Source: a virus. Taken from it: DNA of 44,664 bases. The notes beneath the pieces were generated by a model. It was not told the origin of the DNA. It did no database searches and worked only from the letters and a program-made list of their open reading frames with translations. The stretch covers positions 1 through 44,664 of IMG/VR virus record IMGVR_UViG_3300012022_000001; one strand, given 5' to 3'. A program made the position numbers and the translations under genes. This document shows positions 10,636 to 44,091 of this stretch, in pieces. Each line of letters starts with the position of its first letter. The stretch's first letter is position 1.

Positions 10636-10813
10636 GGAGAGACTTCTATATTGTTTTCAATGTAAAATGGATTTCATGAGTAATATGCCCCAACCCACAT
10701 GCAAGTTATGTGGGAACACTTTATATACCGTGACTAAAAGTGCAATAGATGGAACCAGAAGAACAGGTAAACAAACCAAATTCGTAAGTCTTTTATTAGA
10801 TGAAAAGAAATGA
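10619..10813 (+). CDS. Small zinc-ribbon protein
   Basis: 65 residues from the ATG at 10619. CFQCKMDF and CKLCGNTLY give two CxxC pairs about 16 residues apart, the classic zinc-ribbon layout. The AGAAGAG before the start is a plausible ribosome site. The stop overlaps the start of the DUF3987-like ATPase (ATGA), so it may be a partner of replication proteins; this is only positional inference. Confidence 0.58.
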   Translation: MWNPDKERLLYCFQCKMDFMSNMPQPTCKLCGNTLYTVTKSAIDGTRRTGKQTKFVSLLLDEKK

Positions 10814-12090
10814 CATGGCTGGATCGCTTGGTTTTTTCACGTTCAGAACTTGAGCCTCCCCTCTCGTTTTGGTGGTGGTCTGGACTAGCGATAATTTCGG
10901 CGGTGGTTAAAGACAATATATGGTTACATAGACAAATCTATAACTTGTATCCTAACATATACGTCATGTTTCATGCGGATTCAGGACTAAAAAAAGGCCC
11001 GCCTGTAGCAATGGCAGCTAAATATGTCTCTACCGTAAATAATACTAGAGTAATCGCAGGAAGAAGTTCAATTCAAGGTATCTTAAAGGATATGAGCCAG
11101 GCTAAAACAACGCCGGGCGGGAAAATTCCTACTACTGATGCCTCTGTATTTATCTGTAGTTCAGAACTTTCGAGTTCCATAGTTGAAGATAAAGTAGCAA
11201 CGTCAATTCTTACGGATCTATACGATAGACAGTATAGAGTTGGAGAATGGCGTTCTTTATTAAAGATGGAATCATTTAAGTTAAATAATCCCACAGTTAC
11301 TATGTTAACTGCAACCAATGAAGCACATTCAAATGATTTCTTTGCCAAGAAGGATATCCAAGGGGGATATTTTGCACGAACTTTTATCATATATGAGCAT
11401 ACCGAGAATCGTTCTAATTCCCTAATTCTCCCATTAAAGAATCCCCCCAATGATGAGGAAAGTATAAATTATTTAAAGGCTCTTGGAAAATTAAAAGGAT
11501 CCTTTCTTCCTTTAGGAATGGCAGAAAAATGTGAAGGATACGAGGAATTTTGGACTGATCCTTTAAGTGGGGAATCAGGATATTTAAGTAAAGCAGGATT
11601 AATATACCAACAATGGTATTATGATTTTAAAGCTAGCATGAAGAACCAGTTCAATAAAGATGAAACAGGAACTATGAATCGTTTTGGAGATTCAGTTCTT
11701 AAAGTAGCAATGCTTCTATCCTTAGCAGAGAAACCAGAATTAATCATAACCGAAAGGGCAATGGATGAATCAATAAGAAAATGTGAATTTCTATTAGGTA
11801 ATGTGCGCCAAACTACATTAGGTGCTAAGGGAACAAGTCTTAATACTCCTCTTAAAGTTAAAATAATAATGGAGTTACTTGGACGGGAAAATCAACAGAT
11901 TAGTCATCAGATGTTATTGAAAAAAATATGGATGCATTACAAAGATATAAATGAAATAACTGAATTAATGGCTTCCTTTGAACAGGCGGGGATGATTAGA
12001 ATAGAAATGAATGGCAATCACATAATCTACAAAATGACTGAAAACCAGGTAGAAGAGTATAAACGCTTCTTTGCAGGAAAAACAAAATGA
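10810..12090 (+). CDS. DUF3987-like replication ATPase candidate
   Basis: 426 residues. N-terminal WLDRLVFSRSELEPPLSFW then a helix and a degenerate P-loop (HADSGLKKGPPV, 55-66), followed by GRSSIQGILKDMSQ, a strand ending SSELSSS, and TATNEAH, an order typical of DUF3987/YfjI-type proteins related to helicase-primase ATPases. The usual GKS is GPP here, so nucleotide binding may be altered. The C-terminus looks like a winged-helix (QISHQMLLKKIWMHY, then LMASFEQAGMIRIEM). Its place after the polymerase suggests the helicase or loader function, since no DnaB-type helicase is seen. Confidence 0.6.
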   Translation: MTWLDRLVFSRSELEPPLSFWWWSGLAIISAVVKDNIWLHRQIYNLYPNIYVMFHADSGLKKGPPVAMAAKYVSTVNNTRVIAGRSSIQGILKDMSQAKTTPGGKIPTTDASVFICSSELSSSIVEDKVATSILTDLYDRQYRVGEWRSLLKMESFKLNNPTVTMLTATNEAHSNDFFAKKDIQGGYFARTFIIYEHTENRSNSLILPLKNPPNDEESINYLKALGKLKGSFLPLGMAEKCEGYEEFWTDPLSGESGYLSKAGLIYQQWYYDFKASMKNQFNKDETGTMNRFGDSVLKVAMLLSLAEKPELIITERAMDESIRKCEFLLGNVRQTTLGAKGTSLNTPLKVKIIMELLGRENQQISHQMLLKKIWMHYKDINEITELMASFEQAGMIRIEMNGNHIIYKMTENQVEEYKRFFAGKTK

Positions 12091-12623
12091 CTAAGAACAT
12101 TTGCAAACTAACCTTCGTGTTCTTACTCGCAACTGCGCCCGTTTACGCAGTTCCCATTGGTGATCCAGTTGTAGTTATGAGATCATGGGAGGGAAATAAT
12201 TTTAGATTGGATCTCGAAATAACTACCGTCCTAGAATCAGGTATCTACGTTCCTATCGGCCCAATGAGAGGAGCAACTATTGCTGATGTTGTAACTTCCA
12301 TAAATGGACAATTATTTAGGGATGGAAATACATACACAATTTCAATGGGCGGGGTTAAATATCGCAGTTGGATGTTTCCCAATTTTGCGTATCTCCAACT
12401 GAACATTCAGAATTTCGGTTTCCATGTATTAGGACATTATTCGGGCGGAATGTCCTTAAGTGGTCCAATAGCTTCACCTTTAAGTGAAATTACTCCTTCC
12501 TTTGAACTCGCGCCTGCTATTACATCCACAGTTACATCCTCAACTTCTGTAGCTGTTCCTGAACCTTCTACTATGATGCTCTTAGTTAGTGCATTATATG
12601 CATGTATCTGGAGATTAAAATAA
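12087..12623 (+). CDS. Exported PEP-CTERM protein
   Basis: 178 residues. The N-terminus has a clear Sec signal peptide (TKNICK, then LTFVFLLATAPVYA with cleavage after residue 21). The C-terminus is a textbook PEP-CTERM sorting signal: VPEPST at 157-162, a hydrophobic stretch (MMLLVSALYACIW) and a basic RLK end. In bacteria such tails are processed by exosortase and the protein is anchored or released with exopolysaccharide. The body is beta-rich with low charge. The start overlaps the ATPase stop (ATGA). A phage-encoded PEP-CTERM protein would act on the host surface, perhaps in superinfection exclusion or biofilm change; that role is inference. Confidence 0.78.
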   Translation: MTKNICKLTFVFLLATAPVYAVPIGDPVVVMRSWEGNNFRLDLEITTVLESGIYVPIGPMRGATIADVVTSINGQLFRDGNTYTISMGGVKYRSWMFPNFAYLQLNIQNFGFHVLGHYSGGMSLSGPIASPLSEITPSFELAPAITSTVTSSTSVAVPEPSTMMLLVSALYACIWRLK

Positions 12624-12961: not shown

Positions 12962-13049
12962 CCCACAGTGGCGGAATAGGCAGACGCTACGGACTTAAAA
13001 TCCGTTGGTATTTAATACCATGTGGGTTCGATTCCCACCTGTGGGACCA
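12962..13049 (+). tRNA. tRNA-Leu (anticodon UAA)
   Basis: Class II tRNA with acceptor arms CCCACAG and CTGTGGG, D-arm TGGCGGAATAGGCAGACGC, anticodon stem ACGGA/TCCGT around loop CTTAAAA (anticodon TAA), variable arm GGTATTTAATACC, T-arm GTGGGTTCGATTCCCAC, discriminator A and an encoded CCA (13047-13049). All arms pair. It reads TTA codons, which are frequent in these AT-rich genes, so it may offset a host preferring other Leu codons. Confidence 0.95.
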
Positions 13050-13068: not shown

Positions 13069-13515
13069 ATGTTTTCTAGAAGAGAATTTTTACGCCATAT
13101 AGCAGCTATTTCAGTAGGCACCGCTGCTGTACCGGAACAAATAGATATTTTAGAAAGAATATATAATATAAATACCCCAGAAATAGAAAAAGATCTTATT
13201 TCCGTTGATGAAATTTGGATTTCAGGATTAGCTAAATTTTCCTCCCCTACTAGTGTAATAATCAATTGTGGCCCATTTCTTGCTCCATTATATCTCACTG
13301 TCAATTGCTTCGGGGGAATAGTTCGTTGGGTTGCAACTGCTGAGGGTAAGATCATTATGGATAAAAATAAATTAGATATTTCCTTCAAGGAGCATTTTGA
13401 AAGGGGACCAAATTACGAAAAGGATGTGGCCTTTACCAAGGGAAAAATATTAATAGGCCATATTCACTATCTTGATCAGGATTTAAGAAGCCAAACATTA
13501 GGATTTGAGTACTAA
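13069..13515 (+). CDS. Twin-arginine-signal protein with phage decoration-like core
   Basis: 148 residues with AAGGAG upstream. The N-terminus SRREFLRHIAAISVGTAAV fits a Tat signal (S-R-R-x-F-L-R then a moderately hydrophobic, Ala-rich stretch). The segment LYLTVNCFGGIVRWVATAEG resembles LLNLSFNAFGGVVRWVNGPD in the virion protein at 41726-42220, suggesting a shared small beta domain. Known Tat substrates are exported folded. Export of a virion-like domain would be odd, so the signal may be coincidental or the protein may act at the host envelope. Neighbours are a tRNA and a beta-helix protein. Confidence 0.5.
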   Translation: MFSRREFLRHIAAISVGTAAVPEQIDILERIYNINTPEIEKDLISVDEIWISGLAKFSSPTSVIINCGPFLAPLYLTVNCFGGIVRWVATAEGKIIMDKNKLDISFKEHFERGPNYEKDVAFTKGKILIGHIHYLDQDLRSQTLGFEY

Positions 13516-13541: not shown

Positions 13542-15014
13542 ATGACCATATTCATAGGCGGTATAGGATTAAGCTCTGTTGCTGTTCGTGGGGGTTCTCC
13601 TACATTATCAGGAATACCAGTTCCCCTAAATACGGTAGATATAAATGGATTCATTGCCCAGTTTCCTACGGGTTCTGAATTTAGATTTGTAGCGGGAACC
13701 TATAGATTCCTGGAAAGTTTAGTTGCTCGGAGTGGAGATATTTATCATGGAACAGTATCAGGCGGAGTTAGACAAACTACTATTACAGGGGCAAAAATTT
13801 TAACTGGATGGGTTTTTGAAAGTGGAAGATGGTGGGTAGGGGGACAAACACAACAAGGAACTGTAGGGAGTTCAAGCGCGTGTGCAGGAGCTATTTCCTT
13901 TGACCCTGAATATCCAATGTGTATTCATCCTGAAGCCCTATTCATGGATGATGTATTTAAGATCCACGTTTCCACAATAGGAGAAGTAATTCCTGGGACA
14001 TGGCATTTTGATTATCCCAATGATAGAATTTACGTAGGGGATGATCCTAATGGACACTTGGTAGAGACTAGTTGGGTACCTAAAGTATTTGCTCCTACAT
14101 CCTCTGCCTCAAATGTTACAATATCAGATATGATTATCGAGAAATTTGCTGCCCCTACAGCAGAAGCGGCAGTTAATTTAGGATATTCCCCATTAGGAGC
14201 AGCCAATTGGACCTGTGAATCATGTGAAGTTAGATATTGTAGTGGAGGTGGAATAGGAAATGATGCCTTCACTTCCGCAAGAAATAACTACGTCCACCAT
14301 AATATAGGTTTTGGTTTCATTGGTGCGGGTGAGGGAGTTGTAATTGAGGGAAATGAAATAGCATATAACAATATTCAAAGGGTTTACAATAGATTCTTTG
14401 GCGCAGGTGGAAGTAAATGGGTATTTACTACTGGTTTAATTGTGAGAAATAATAATTCTCATCACAATTGGGGGCCAGGATTATGGACAGATACTAGTAA
14501 TATAGATACATTGTATGAAAACAATGTCGTGGAATTCAACCAGAGTTCGGGTATATTTCATGAAATTAGTTATGATGCTATAATCAGGAATAACACCTGT
14601 AGATTTAATGGACAGGGACAAGATTTCCCATTTTGGGTTAGCCCTGCTGGAATTGAAGTTGTATCCTCACGTAACGTGGAAGTTTACGATAATGTTTTGG
14701 AGGGAAATTACAACGAAATTACAGGGAATGATGATGGAAGGACAGGCGCGGGTGATCCTAATGCCATTCATGGATTATGGCAATTAACAGGATTTAATGT
14801 ACATCACAATAACATTACGAATACAACCATAGGACTCGGGGGCGCCCGCAGTGGAGTTATTGGAGCATTTCCATTCACATGGGATTTCAATAATCATGTA
14901 TATGGACCAGCAGTAGCAGAACCTTTCTTTATAACCAATGATAGTTATAATGAAACTACTTGGGTAAATGTGGCTGGTAAGGATGTGAATGGTTCATTTA
15001 CTAGGGTACCTTAA
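13542..15014 (+). CDS. Right-handed beta-helix protein (spike or depolymerase-like)
   Basis: 490 residues, TAGGAG upstream. Residues 20-130 resemble the start of pectate-lyase-like tail proteins; residues 180-450 carry parallel beta-helix repeats of about 22-25 residues with N-N and H-N ladders (LIVRNNNSHHNWGPGLW, VVEFNQSSGIFHE, AIIRNNTCRFNG, NVEVYDNVLEGNY, FNVHHNNITNTTIG). This fold is used by phage tailspikes that bind or cut surface polysaccharide and by secreted lyases. It is encoded on the strand opposite to the virion genes and lacks the head-binding domain of classical tailspikes, so a secreted or surface-acting enzyme is also possible. Catalytic residues cannot be picked. Confidence 0.72.
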   Translation: MTIFIGGIGLSSVAVRGGSPTLSGIPVPLNTVDINGFIAQFPTGSEFRFVAGTYRFLESLVARSGDIYHGTVSGGVRQTTITGAKILTGWVFESGRWWVGGQTQQGTVGSSSACAGAISFDPEYPMCIHPEALFMDDVFKIHVSTIGEVIPGTWHFDYPNDRIYVGDDPNGHLVETSWVPKVFAPTSSASNVTISDMIIEKFAAPTAEAAVNLGYSPLGAANWTCESCEVRYCSGGGIGNDAFTSARNNYVHHNIGFGFIGAGEGVVIEGNEIAYNNIQRVYNRFFGAGGSKWVFTTGLIVRNNNSHHNWGPGLWTDTSNIDTLYENNVVEFNQSSGIFHEISYDAIIRNNTCRFNGQGQDFPFWVSPAGIEVVSSRNVEVYDNVLEGNYNEITGNDDGRTGAGDPNAIHGLWQLTGFNVHHNNITNTTIGLGGARSGVIGAFPFTWDFNNHVYGPAVAEPFFITNDSYNETTWVNVAGKDVNGSFTRVP

Positions 15015-28122: not shown

Positions 28123-29373
28123 TTAGTAACCAGTAGGAACTGCTAATGTATCAATATAGGCAGTGGCCGCAGGATTGTTTACGAATGCCTGGAAACCATT
28201 GACCATATAGAAGATTTCAGCAGTCATAACGCCACCTGAAGGCCCACGGATTTCAAAAATCTTTCTACCATCGGTTGTATAGAAACCAATAGGAAGAATT
28301 TCTCCACGGCCCCAGGTTTCATCGGTAACGAAATCAATACGGGTTTTATCCCAACTGAAATGAGTCTTAATGGGTGCTCCAGCTAACTGCATGTTATCGC
28401 CGAAGTAAACATTAAGAGCCTCATCTTTAGCCTGCTTATGAATAATGGAAATTAACTGACCAATTTCCTCATAAGCCTGCGCCTGACAAGGATGGGTCCA
28501 AGCATTTGGTCTGAAATTATTATTGCCGACACGATTTCCCATCTTGTTAATTGCTAATCGTGGTAATGGTAATGACAATGCAGCAGAACCACCATTAACA
28601 CGATTGGAACGAATTTCAGGCGTGGTTGCCCGGCTAAAACCTAACCAAGTTCCTGTAGATGCATTAGAATGATGATAAGGCACACCAAATAATGCAGGTA
28701 AGGAAGCAGGAGAGGTAATACCGTTGGTAACAATCTTATCCGTAGCAATCACACCTGCAATCTGGGGCGCGATTTTAATTTGCTTATTTTCCACGTCCCA
28801 GAAAGTAATAGTTCCTGAGCCACGATTAGTAGCTAAGGTAGCATCAAAGATTTGAACCGTTTGTCCAAATCTCATTAAGCGCGCACCAAAGCCGTCAGTG
28901 GTTAAATCAATTACGTTCTCACCACCGGCGGGCGTATCCGCAGTTACAGTTCCAATTACACCATTACCAGGCTGTTGTAATTGAGAATCAATCTGACGGC
29001 GCAATTCATCTAATGCTGTAGCAACTAAACGCCGCACAGCATTTTCGATGGATTTACGATCAGTATTCGTGGCCCACTGAGTTAACTTGGTATATTCAAT
29101 ATTTTCTGACATGAATACAGGCTGTAATACGGCTTTATCCCAAGTTGGCCCACCGCCACGTCCTAAATCTCCACCATCGGGATTAAAATACTGGAAAGAG
29201 CCACCAGGTCTTAATTCCAATGGAACACGCATTTGACGATATGAAATTGTCTCAACATCACGCTTCTTGATGTTGGCATAAAACATATCATCACGTTCAA
29301 AAACTGTGCGAACTTTAGGCAGTACCCGCTCTAATTCAAGAGCAACTACCTGCTGTTCATTAACTGCTGCCAT
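28123..29373 (-). CDS. Major capsid protein
   Basis: 416 residues. N-terminal arm VLPKVRTVFERDDMFYANIK, then LRPGGSFQYFNPDGGDLGRG, a helix LTQWATNTDRKSIENAVRRL and the P-domain-like IGQLISIIHKQAKDEALNVY; ends in GVMTAEIFYMVNGFQAFVNN. Length, composition and position directly after scaffold and portal identify the major capsid protein, presumably HK97 fold. No proteolytic delta domain is seen; a separate scaffold is present. Confidence 0.85.
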   Translation of the reverse strand: MAAVNEQQVVALELERVLPKVRTVFERDDMFYANIKKRDVETISYRQMRVPLELRPGGSFQYFNPDGGDLGRGGGPTWDKAVLQPVFMSENIEYTKLTQWATNTDRKSIENAVRRLVATALDELRRQIDSQLQQPGNGVIGTVTADTPAGGENVIDLTTDGFGARLMRFGQTVQIFDATLATNRGSGTITFWDVENKQIKIAPQIAGVIATDKIVTNGITSPASLPALFGVPYHHSNASTGTWLGFSRATTPEIRSNRVNGGSAALSLPLPRLAINKMGNRVGNNNFRPNAWTHPCQAQAYEEIGQLISIIHKQAKDEALNVYFGDNMQLAGAPIKTHFSWDKTRIDFVTDETWGRGEILPIGFYTTDGRKIFEIRGPSGGVMTAEIFYMVNGFQAFVNNPAATAYIDTLAVPTGY

Positions 29374-33097: not shown

Positions 33098-33440
33098 TTT
33101 CTTCCCCCTTACCCAGAATTTCTTCCTCAAGTTTCTCCACCGTAGAATTCATTTCCTTAATTTCTTTCTGTTTTTTCTGCATTAATTCCAATGATTTCCT
33201 ATCTTCCTGATCCATCATTTGCTGCCTAACAGCATGAGGAATAAATTTACGGGAAGTGGGCAATGGTTTCATTTCTGAAATTTCCATTGCTGGTTGTGTT
33301 TCTACTTTAGGCATTAAGAGCCTATCCAGTAATCGTTCTTTCTCTCGTCTTTCATTCTCTAACTCACGTTGAAGAACTTCACAAGTTGAACACGGTTTAT
33401 CTTCAAGACCAAACCATTTATAAAGTAATTCTTTAATCAT
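33078..33440 (-). CDS. Coiled-coil protein beside terminase
   Basis: 120 residues. CSTCEVLQRELENERREKER is a coiled coil with one CxxC, a Pro-rich middle (MKPLPTSRKFIPHAVRQQMM) and a second helix (MQKKQKEIKEMNSTVEKLEE). Similar small coiled-coil proteins are found between TerL and portal in related phages. Function unknown. It starts at the stop of TerL (overlap of one base). Confidence 0.55.
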   Translation of the reverse strand: MIKELLYKWFGLEDKPCSTCEVLQRELENERREKERLLDRLLMPKVETQPAMEISEMKPLPTSRKFIPHAVRQQMMDQEDRKSLELMQKKQKEIKEMNSTVEKLEEEILGKGEENASKIS

Positions 33441-35113
33441 TATCTACTCCTGTGAAATCTTTGAATTGGTTTAATCATTTCCTCATCACCAGCTTCCATT
33501 GTTCTCATATTTCGATAGAAAGCAGTGAAATCTCCGGTATTTGCTAGCTGTTGCGTAAGATGTTCCCTTTCTTGGAACTTCTTAAATTCTTCCGCTGCTT
33601 CCTCAAAATATGATTCAGCGGTCGCGCATGCATATCTTAAATCATCGTATGCATCATCTCCCTCAAACTCTGCAACATCTTCTGCGGGTTTATTATTTTT
33701 TGGCTTATCATAATTACATGCTTTGATTGAATCAACCATTATTGGGCAACAATTAGCATGCCCATGATTAGTAGGATGATCACCTTCACACAGAAAGATT
33801 TGAAGTTTAGGTATATTCTTCTCTTCTTCAGGCGTGTCAAATAATTTCAGATATCTCTTATATGTATCAAGACCCTTTACTCGAAGGAGCCATCTTGCAT
33901 ATTCATCATTATATTTTGGCATTTCCTGCACTGGAACATGCTGCTGTTTCCATCGTAAATATTCATGAAGTAACGTCTTACCTGCAAGACGAGAGCCAGG
34001 AGTATTATCAGATAATTCAATAGGAACATCCAATGCTTCACTAATCTGCTCCTGAATAGTCTGCTCCTGTCCTCTATCCTGTTTTGCAGACCTACAGAAC
34101 TTAACAATTCTTGGATTCTCCTTTTCAATAAATTCCTTGACATACGGTGCCCATTCCTTAATCTTTGTCTTAACCCACCATTGTTCCCGGTAAAGATAGA
34201 GCCTTTTAGTTGGGGATACTGCATAATATCCAATATAAGTCATTGCAGTATAACCCCAATCACCAATTACAAACTTGGGCCACCACTCAGGAATTTGGAA
34301 TGGAGGAATACAATGTAATGCATTATCAGGTTCATCAGGATAATGTTTATCCCTAAATTCATCAAATACCTGGCCTAGATATGCATCAAAATCTCCATAT
34401 TTCTTAGCTTTCTTCTCAGCTTCATTTAATCCTTCTAACGATTGACCATACGTAGGATCAAGGTGAGGATTATCAGCTAATGTTGCGCGGACGAATATGC
34501 GGAGATTTCCACCTTTACCTTCAATAACTCTTCCACCAGGTTTATAAGGATCTATGAATCTTTTCTTAAACCATGTATGACCTATTCCACCCGGCATAGC
34601 TGCACCACGCACGATAGCAGGTAATGTCCTATCCGATGCACGTACGCGGGTGAAGGCAATATACATATACATATATTCAGTTAATGATGTCATCTCATCG
34701 GGGGTGAAGAGATTAATTTCCATTGAATCGTATTTATGAACATCATCCTCATTTTCGCAATGGCCCAAGAAAATCATTGCTCCCATATTTCCCATACCAG
34801 TTCCCCCTGCTTGATCTAGCCTAGGAAATGTCCATACCATTTCAGAACGATTTAATGTTGCTCCAAATTTAGTAAATATTTCCCTAGAACGAGGTAATAC
34901 TTCATTCCTTAATTCGGGGAAAGTCCTGCGCATGAAAACCTGTTTAAATCTAGAATTCATGTGCCATTCATGAATAATTCCATATACCAATAATACATCT
35001 GTCTTACCTGAACCAGCCCCGCCTGCATACACAGCTTCTTTAATACTCAAAGGAACCGCGAGGAAGGGTTCCTGCTTTTTATTTGGTTTCCAGTATGGTT
35101 TATCAAATGCCAT
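33440..35113 (-). CDS. Terminase large subunit
   Basis: 557 residues. ATPase: Walker A GGAGSGKT at 31-38 and Walker B INLFTPDE with D139-E140, followed by a coupling motif in IAFTRVR. Nuclease: FVIGDWGYTAMTYIGYYAV provides the first RNase H-fold Asp near residue 280, and EFEGDDAYDDLRYA near the C-terminus supplies the late acidic residues. It packages DNA into the prohead through the portal. The small-terminase candidate lies at the promoter end of the operon, not directly beside it. Confidence 0.92.
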   Translation of the reverse strand: MAFDKPYWKPNKKQEPFLAVPLSIKEAVYAGGAGSGKTDVLLVYGIIHEWHMNSRFKQVFMRRTFPELRNEVLPRSREIFTKFGATLNRSEMVWTFPRLDQAGGTGMGNMGAMIFLGHCENEDDVHKYDSMEINLFTPDEMTSLTEYMYMYIAFTRVRASDRTLPAIVRGAAMPGGIGHTWFKKRFIDPYKPGGRVIEGKGGNLRIFVRATLADNPHLDPTYGQSLEGLNEAEKKAKKYGDFDAYLGQVFDEFRDKHYPDEPDNALHCIPPFQIPEWWPKFVIGDWGYTAMTYIGYYAVSPTKRLYLYREQWWVKTKIKEWAPYVKEFIEKENPRIVKFCRSAKQDRGQEQTIQEQISEALDVPIELSDNTPGSRLAGKTLLHEYLRWKQQHVPVQEMPKYNDEYARWLLRVKGLDTYKRYLKLFDTPEEEKNIPKLQIFLCEGDHPTNHGHANCCPIMVDSIKACNYDKPKNNKPAEDVAEFEGDDAYDDLRYACATAESYFEEAAEEFKKFQEREHLTQQLANTGDFTAFYRNMRTMEAGDEEMIKPIQRFHRSR

Positions 35114-43524: not shown

Positions 43525-44091
43525 TCATTCATTAACTCGAATCGGCTCACCATAATCTTCCAAGCGCGCAGTCTCGGGACGATAGAATATGAATTGATTA
43601 TTCTGTTGATTAACTGGTCCTACGGGCGCGTCAGGTTCCATGTTCTTAACGATAGCAGACATATCCTTAGCTATTGCAGCTAAGTTACGAGGAGATTCTT
43701 TTTGAAGGGCTTCGGGGGAAATGCTATCTAGGGAGGATTGTAACTTTCGGAGGGCTTTCTTTGTCAGACGATCTTTTCTATTCCTGATATAATCTGCTAT
43801 CGTTTTGTTGGGGGTATTATATGATGCTGTGGAAGTACTACCTTTTGCATACGCACTTACGGAGGAATCTGATATTCCAAACATCCTTGCAATCTTTAAA
43901 GCTTCCTGTCTACCTTCAATCTCGCTTGTTTCACCAATAATCTTCCTGAGGGATTCAGGGACATTATTATTTCCTTGCCCTCTACCCTTGTCCTGATCCT
44001 GAGGAATAATTTCAGGTGTAATTACTTCTTTAACTCCATTCCTATGGAGTTCCCTTTCAAATTCATCGTTAGAAACTATACCCATGGGCAT
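43525..44091 (-). CDS. Small terminase subunit candidate
   Basis: 188 residues, AGGAGA nine bases upstream. A helix-turn-helix at about 60-85 (RQEALKIARMFGISDSSVSA, then YAKGSTSTASYN) followed by helical LTKKALRKLQSSLDSISPEA and KDMSAIVKNMEPDAPVGPVN, ending in a flexible tail with FIFYRPE. This is the pattern of phage TerS-like proteins that recognise the packaging site and recruit TerL. It is the first gene of the virion operon, right behind the leftward promoter. Confidence 0.65.
   Translation of the reverse strand: MPMGIVSNDEFERELHRNGVKEVITPEIIPQDQDKGRGQGNNNVPESLRKIIGETSEIEGRQEALKIARMFGISDSSVSAYAKGSTSTASYNTPNKTIADYIRNRKDRLTKKALRKLQSSLDSISPEALQKESPRNLAAIAKDMSAIVKNMEPDAPVGPVNQQNNQFIFYRPETARLEDYGEPIRVNE

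Follow-up and report, generated by a model that had tools for sequence, protein, structure and literature searches.

A gene at positions 12087-12623 of the window, by which we mean the whole stretch of DNA analysed here (IMG/VR record G000, 44,664 bases, a metagenome contig and linear virus record), was found to encode a 178-residue protein combining a Sec-type signal peptide with a PEP-CTERM tail, the C-terminal tag by which some Gram-negative bacteria direct proteins to the cell surface. The gene lies in a phage genome, its signal architecture is conserved in a sister phage, and the same tag recurs on unrelated proteins of other phages. It is probably a phage accessory ('moron'-type) gene, the product of which would be a substrate of the host exosortase and alter the envelope of the infected cell.

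The open frame on the plus strand, whose coordinates and residues agreed with the preliminary description when checked on the sequence, begins with MTKNICKLTFVFLLATAPVYA (12087-12149) followed by VP. Inspection and a simple test of hydropathy both indicated that this N-terminus is a Sec-type signal peptide, as the earlier reading had held, with cleavage expected after A21. Cysteine is absent from the cleavage site (VYA followed by VP), indicating that the signal is not a lipoprotein signal. The mature domain with its Ser/Thr-rich linker (12150-12554) matched no Pfam, NCBIfam or PHROGs family besides the tail. It appeared beta-rich only in a low-confidence model, as AlphaFold2 gave a pLDDT of 35, which is not usable. 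No transmembrane segment was seen other than the C-terminal helix. The C-terminus, VPEPSTMMLLVSALYACIWRLK, contains a three-part PEP-CTERM tail exactly at 12555-12620, made up of the PEP box VPEPST (12555-12572, matched by TIGR02595 and PF07589), the hydrophobic transmembrane stretch MMLLVSALYAC (12573-12605, the 11 residues 163-173, ending five residues before the stop), and the basic end IWRLK (12606-12620), followed by the stop codon at 12621-12623.

The tail had been called perfect in the preliminary description. All of its parts are indeed present, but the word overstates borderline scores. The TIGR02595 profile check proposed there gave 15.7 bits by hmmscan on the 178-residue protein, just below the cut-off of 16, and 17.9 bits (E 4e-4) for the window tail in a six-frame search, above the same cut-off, while PF07589 gave 18.2 bits by hmmscan against a cut-off of 20.7. 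The basic end RLK, with two basic residues, is also weaker than the usual cluster. Nevertheless, the combination of PEP box, hydrophobic helix and basic C-terminus was found in only 4 of 3,204 ORFs (ATG start, at least 60 residues), one of which was the window ORF, and all four also had a signal peptide; the ORFs came from the window and loci L001-L116, 117 sequences in all, some of which overlap and are thus not independent. No such tail was detected in 9,612 shuffled proteins. As far as can be judged from sequence, the tail together with the predicted signal peptide is beyond chance, and the putative protein carries a real PEP-CTERM-type tail.

The surrounding genes gave good support for a window that is phage throughout, and the predicted PEP-CTERM gene thus resides in a genuine phage contig. 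Directly upstream on the plus strand is a primase-like DUF3987 protein (10810-12090; PF13148, 1.2e-7; phrog_14296 DNA primase, 1e-11). The phage hallmarks terminase large subunit (33440-35113; phrog_979, 1.8e-31) and major head protein (28123-29373; phrog_14242, 9.6e-8) are encoded on the minus strand, and a family A polymerase was also matched in PHROGs (phrog_17). On the plus strand, the main genes between 63 and 15014 form the replication block, and the structural genes lie on the minus strand from 15132 onward. Relatives of the terminase were detected at 56 viral loci with 48-93% identity, and those of the primase at 60 viral loci. The PEP-CTERM gene overlaps the primase gene by four nucleotides, with its start codon running into the stop codon TGA (ATGA, 12087-12090), and AGGA occurs just 5' of the start, so that the gene looks translationally coupled to the replication block.

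The window protein used as a lone query had no match in IMG/VR or in cultured phages, and a joint query with its ortholog recovered that ortholog alone. The family therefore has two members, the window protein and the sole ortholog found, which is in the sister phage IMGVR_UViG_3300050509_000040 (L057) and occupies the equivalent site after the primase. In most of the stretches that align, the two genomes show about 85% DNA identity. The primases share 99% amino acid identity, and the PEP-CTERM proteins 55%. All 11 signature residues (VPEPST and IWRLK) are identical in the two proteins, whereas much of the linker and helix has been replaced, with helix substitutions mostly of hydrophobic for hydrophobic residues and a one-codon indel inside the helix. 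If each residue had a 55% chance of matching, 11 of 11 matches would have a probability of approximately 0.001, which is our own after-the-fact estimate. The ortholog also keeps the signal peptide (...CAPAYA followed by IP), and its L-L-T-C sequence does not constitute a cleavage-site lipobox.

A dN/dS of 0.35 between the two genes suggested that the PEP-CTERM protein would be expressed and selected. The dS value was 1.04 for this gene versus 0.30 for the primase. Along 10810-12623, the divergence from L057 jumps at the gene boundary, where the primase with 99% identity is followed by the gene with 55%, a sharp jump suggesting that the PEP-CTERM gene was exchanged or evolves very fast. Judging from these rates, the gene is under selection, but fast-evolving or exchanged. 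Of approximately 40 inspected primase loci, those of the window and L057 alone had a PEP-CTERM gene at the post-primase position, indicating that phages of this group do not require the gene.

Stronger cases were found in related phages. In a six-frame search, 7 of 80 related records passed the TIGR02595 cut-off, consisting of the window, the sister phage and five others (L117/L119, L118, L120 and L121). The tails of these five scored 26-30 bits on proteins non-homologous to the window protein; L117 and L119 represent one gene in two nearly identical contigs. In L118, L120 and L121, the PEP-CTERM gene is located directly behind a homologue of the HTH (terS-like) protein encoded at 43525-44091 of the window, and in L119, L129, L130-L133 and L134/L135 it is located between genes for a PD-(D/E)XK nuclease and an AAA ATPase. 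When the signal peptide and tail were removed, the proteins of the relatives fell into several families with no mutual similarity detected. What recurs is the tag and not the protein, at three positions within one phage lineage. Two members of the L119 family were also present in L128 (112 kb) and L126 (19 kb), contigs of quite different gene content, and no relatives of the two phage PEP-CTERM proteins queried were found in plasmid records. As a separate observation, a protein with repeated PDNSLPG- or DNTLP-type motifs adjoins the PEP-CTERM gene in several contigs (L118:934-1452, L184:1727-2230, L191:2457-2807 and L140:4945-5433).

The L119 family was predicted to fold into a beta sandwich (pLDDT 76). 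The best PDB matches of this model included glycan-binding proteins and carbohydrate-binding modules with Z scores of 8-10, values only slightly higher than those from unrelated sandwiches. The model therefore gives a hint of a glycan-binding-like fold for the L119 family alone, and not for the window protein. A cyanovirin-like sequence match of this family (E 0.07) was not significant and was discarded.

The search of viral databases for further cases, which the preliminary description had proposed, yielded many. Scanning IMG/VR for VPEP[ASG][TS][LW][AL]L detected 311 stretches, of which 63 were confirmed as tails, and the loci collected in the survey contained 73 distinct proteins with both a signal peptide and a PEP-CTERM tail, belonging to about 30 families. 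Two of these families, with 11 members each, span unrelated phages. By PHROGs matches, the PEP-CTERM gene of L161 is flanked by terL and portal, that of L151 immediately precedes these two genes, and that of L150 is next to the major head protein. In about half of 46 carrier records, a terminase was matched by phrog_2 or phrog_9, mostly strongly, and this count is a lower bound since the two profiles miss the window's own lineage; some of the carriers lacking a match may consist of host sequence from the edges of prophages.

The FGQ family (A7), named for I-x-x-FGQ-x near the mature N-terminus and exemplified by L161:5434-6081, L151 and L191:1747-2406 among L200-L277 and the earlier loci, had relatives in 111 IMG/VR viral stretches. 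The PEP tail was kept in 67 of 78 inspected loci, and relatives of terL or portal were located nearby in 23 of the 78, representing at least three lineages with only ten baits used. The mature part of one member (L121) reached the cut-off of no NCBIfam family model. A 26-residue consensus tail gave no tblastn match in cultured phages, which is weak evidence for so short a query. From their sequences, phage-borne PEP-CTERM proteins appear to be much more widespread than the window, and phages appear to borrow the bacterial sorting route repeatedly. In addition, nine viral contigs (L142, L143, L147, L164, L169, L176, L186, L188 and L189) contain two PEP-CTERM genes near each other, mostly from different families.

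No exosortase was found in the window phage, nor by PF09721 in any of 50 carrier records, indicating that sorting would need the host enzyme; use of the host exosortase by the phage protein is likely. Neither the terL profile nor the PEP-protein family profile found relatives in GTDB genome contigs by scans with short exact peptide patterns, which can miss divergent ones. None of the cultured phages was close, with at most 29% identity for the terminase among the matches listed and 18-24% for the primase, and such distant relatives suggest no host.

In the model of Haft et al. 2006 (PMC1569441), the signal peptide leads a PEP-CTERM protein to the inner membrane, the helix holds it there, and exosortase cleaves at the PEP motif, after which the protein is sorted further. 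By analogy, the signal peptide would take the phage protein across the inner membrane, where its C-terminal helix would hold it with PEP at the outer face, the host exosortase would cut at the PEP box, and the mature domain would be handed to the cell surface or exopolysaccharide. On the simplest reading, the envelope of the infected cell would thereby be altered, for example by masking receptors against superinfecting phages or through a change in adhesion or EPS around the cell. The effect might be to exclude other phages, to alter aggregation or to help release. That the protein is exported and cleaved, where it ends up and how it benefits the phage are in this case what we infer.

The tail could instead be an ordinary C-terminal membrane anchor containing PEP by chance, giving a periplasmic phage protein anchored in the inner membrane independently of exosortase, with a spanin-like role or one in superinfection exclusion as examples. 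This seems unlikely. The curated hmmscan scores at or just below the cut-offs and a C-terminus with RLK only, in place of an RRRR-type cluster, agree with such an anchor, but VPEPST is fully conserved while the adjacent linker and helix change, related phages have unmistakable PEP-CTERM proteins, and the triad of PEP, helix and basic end occurred in no shuffled protein. Unimolecular spanins are exported phage proteins with a C-terminal transmembrane helix and an N-terminal lipobox. The window protein resembles them in its predicted export and C-terminal helix, and a signal peptide with such a helix is in general their topology too, but the required lipobox cysteine is absent from the end of the signal peptide, and this candidate was rejected.

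Selection on the gene bears on whether it is simply a passenger of bacterial origin, recently acquired and useless to the phage. Its absence from the post-primase position in nearly all relatives inspected, and its much higher divergence than the primase (dS 1.04 versus 0.30), would be expected of an exchanged or passenger gene. We consider this less probable still than a membrane anchor, as dN/dS is 0.35, the gene is intact in two independent assemblies with the tag signature conserved, and unrelated PEP-CTERM proteins have been gained repeatedly by relatives and unrelated phages, often at the same site. Misassembly or a host flank, namely a gene of a bacterial contig joined to the phage, deserves hardly any credence: the window does come from a metagenome, as the contig behind a linear virus record, but the start codon overlaps the primase stop codon, phage genes lie on either side, and the independent contig IMGVR_UViG_3300050509_000040, about 85% identical in DNA, has the identical arrangement, on the basis of which this explanation was rejected.

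The window protein shares with proteins of the PEP-CTERM/EpsH system (TIGR02595, PF07589; PMC1569441) the signal peptide, Pro-Glu-Pro box, helix and basic end, as well as a highly variable mature domain with no other transmembrane segment seen. Unlike those proteins, it is encoded by a phage-borne gene overlapping a replication gene, not in a bacterial chromosome, and has a borderline model score and a short basic end. According to PMC12188702, PEP-CTERM proteins of bacteria stabilise surface EPS and are required for flocs to form, and proteins of the PepA type (NF033554) function in floc formation of Zoogloea and Aquincola (cited in PMC12188702; PMC9850573). Proteins of related phages gave partial matches to the PepA type and similar PEP-CTERM families, all far below the family cut-offs, whereas the mature part of the window protein gave none.

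The preliminary description had also called phage-borne examples not known to be described. Indeed, no dedicated description of phage-encoded PEP-CTERM proteins was found in the part of the literature that was searchable, with subscription journals and preprints largely outside it, but PMC11003980, the sole hint, refers to 13 TIGR03118 proteins, derived by HGT and bearing a putative exosortase interaction domain, on viral contigs from Yellowstone. These proteins are similar in having an exosortase-interaction-type C-terminal domain on viral contigs, and different in belonging to another family, not matched here, which was listed there in passing with no analysis of the tag. A Microcystis paper naming both PEP-CTERM and phages was set aside, as it concerns genes of the host and not phage-encoded ones. 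As a whole, the earlier interpretation was partly supported, by a real tail, a phage contig, retention in the sister phage, stronger cases in relatives and many in IMG/VR; it went too far in 'perfect', and its remark on undescribed examples was close to right, though not entirely.

Exosortase sorting is known from bacteria, where it serves surface proteins and proteins associated with EPS. If phages channel proteins of their own into this route, they would be able to modify the infected-cell surface within flocs and biofilms. The tag would then also provide a sequence handle on the hosts of uncultured phages, which would be exosortase-bearing and have an outer membrane, and the phage proteins would be small natural substrates for the study of exosortase. 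It is possible, if still short of probable, that PEP-CTERM cargo of many unrelated families, often encoded beside the terminase, is a systematic feature of phages infecting exosortase-bearing bacteria and serves to coat or remodel the infected-cell surface or exopolysaccharide via the host exosortase, which would constitute a widespread and unrecognised class of envelope-modifying proteins.

Several further features were observed behind the PEP-CTERM gene. A tRNA-Leu (anticodon TAA) is located at 12962-13049 amid small genes, and 13069-13515 encodes a 148-residue protein with a Tat-like N-terminus, MFSRREFLRHIAAISVGTAAVP. In L067, a small ORF lies directly behind the same primase gene, and its start, MNRRELLKLISMGALGHALDVDKLLW, is similar to that of the 13069-13515 protein. 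The plus-strand block ends at 13542-15014, apart from the structural genes, with a right-handed beta-helix protein (PF13229, 4.9e-11) that is possibly polysaccharide-active.
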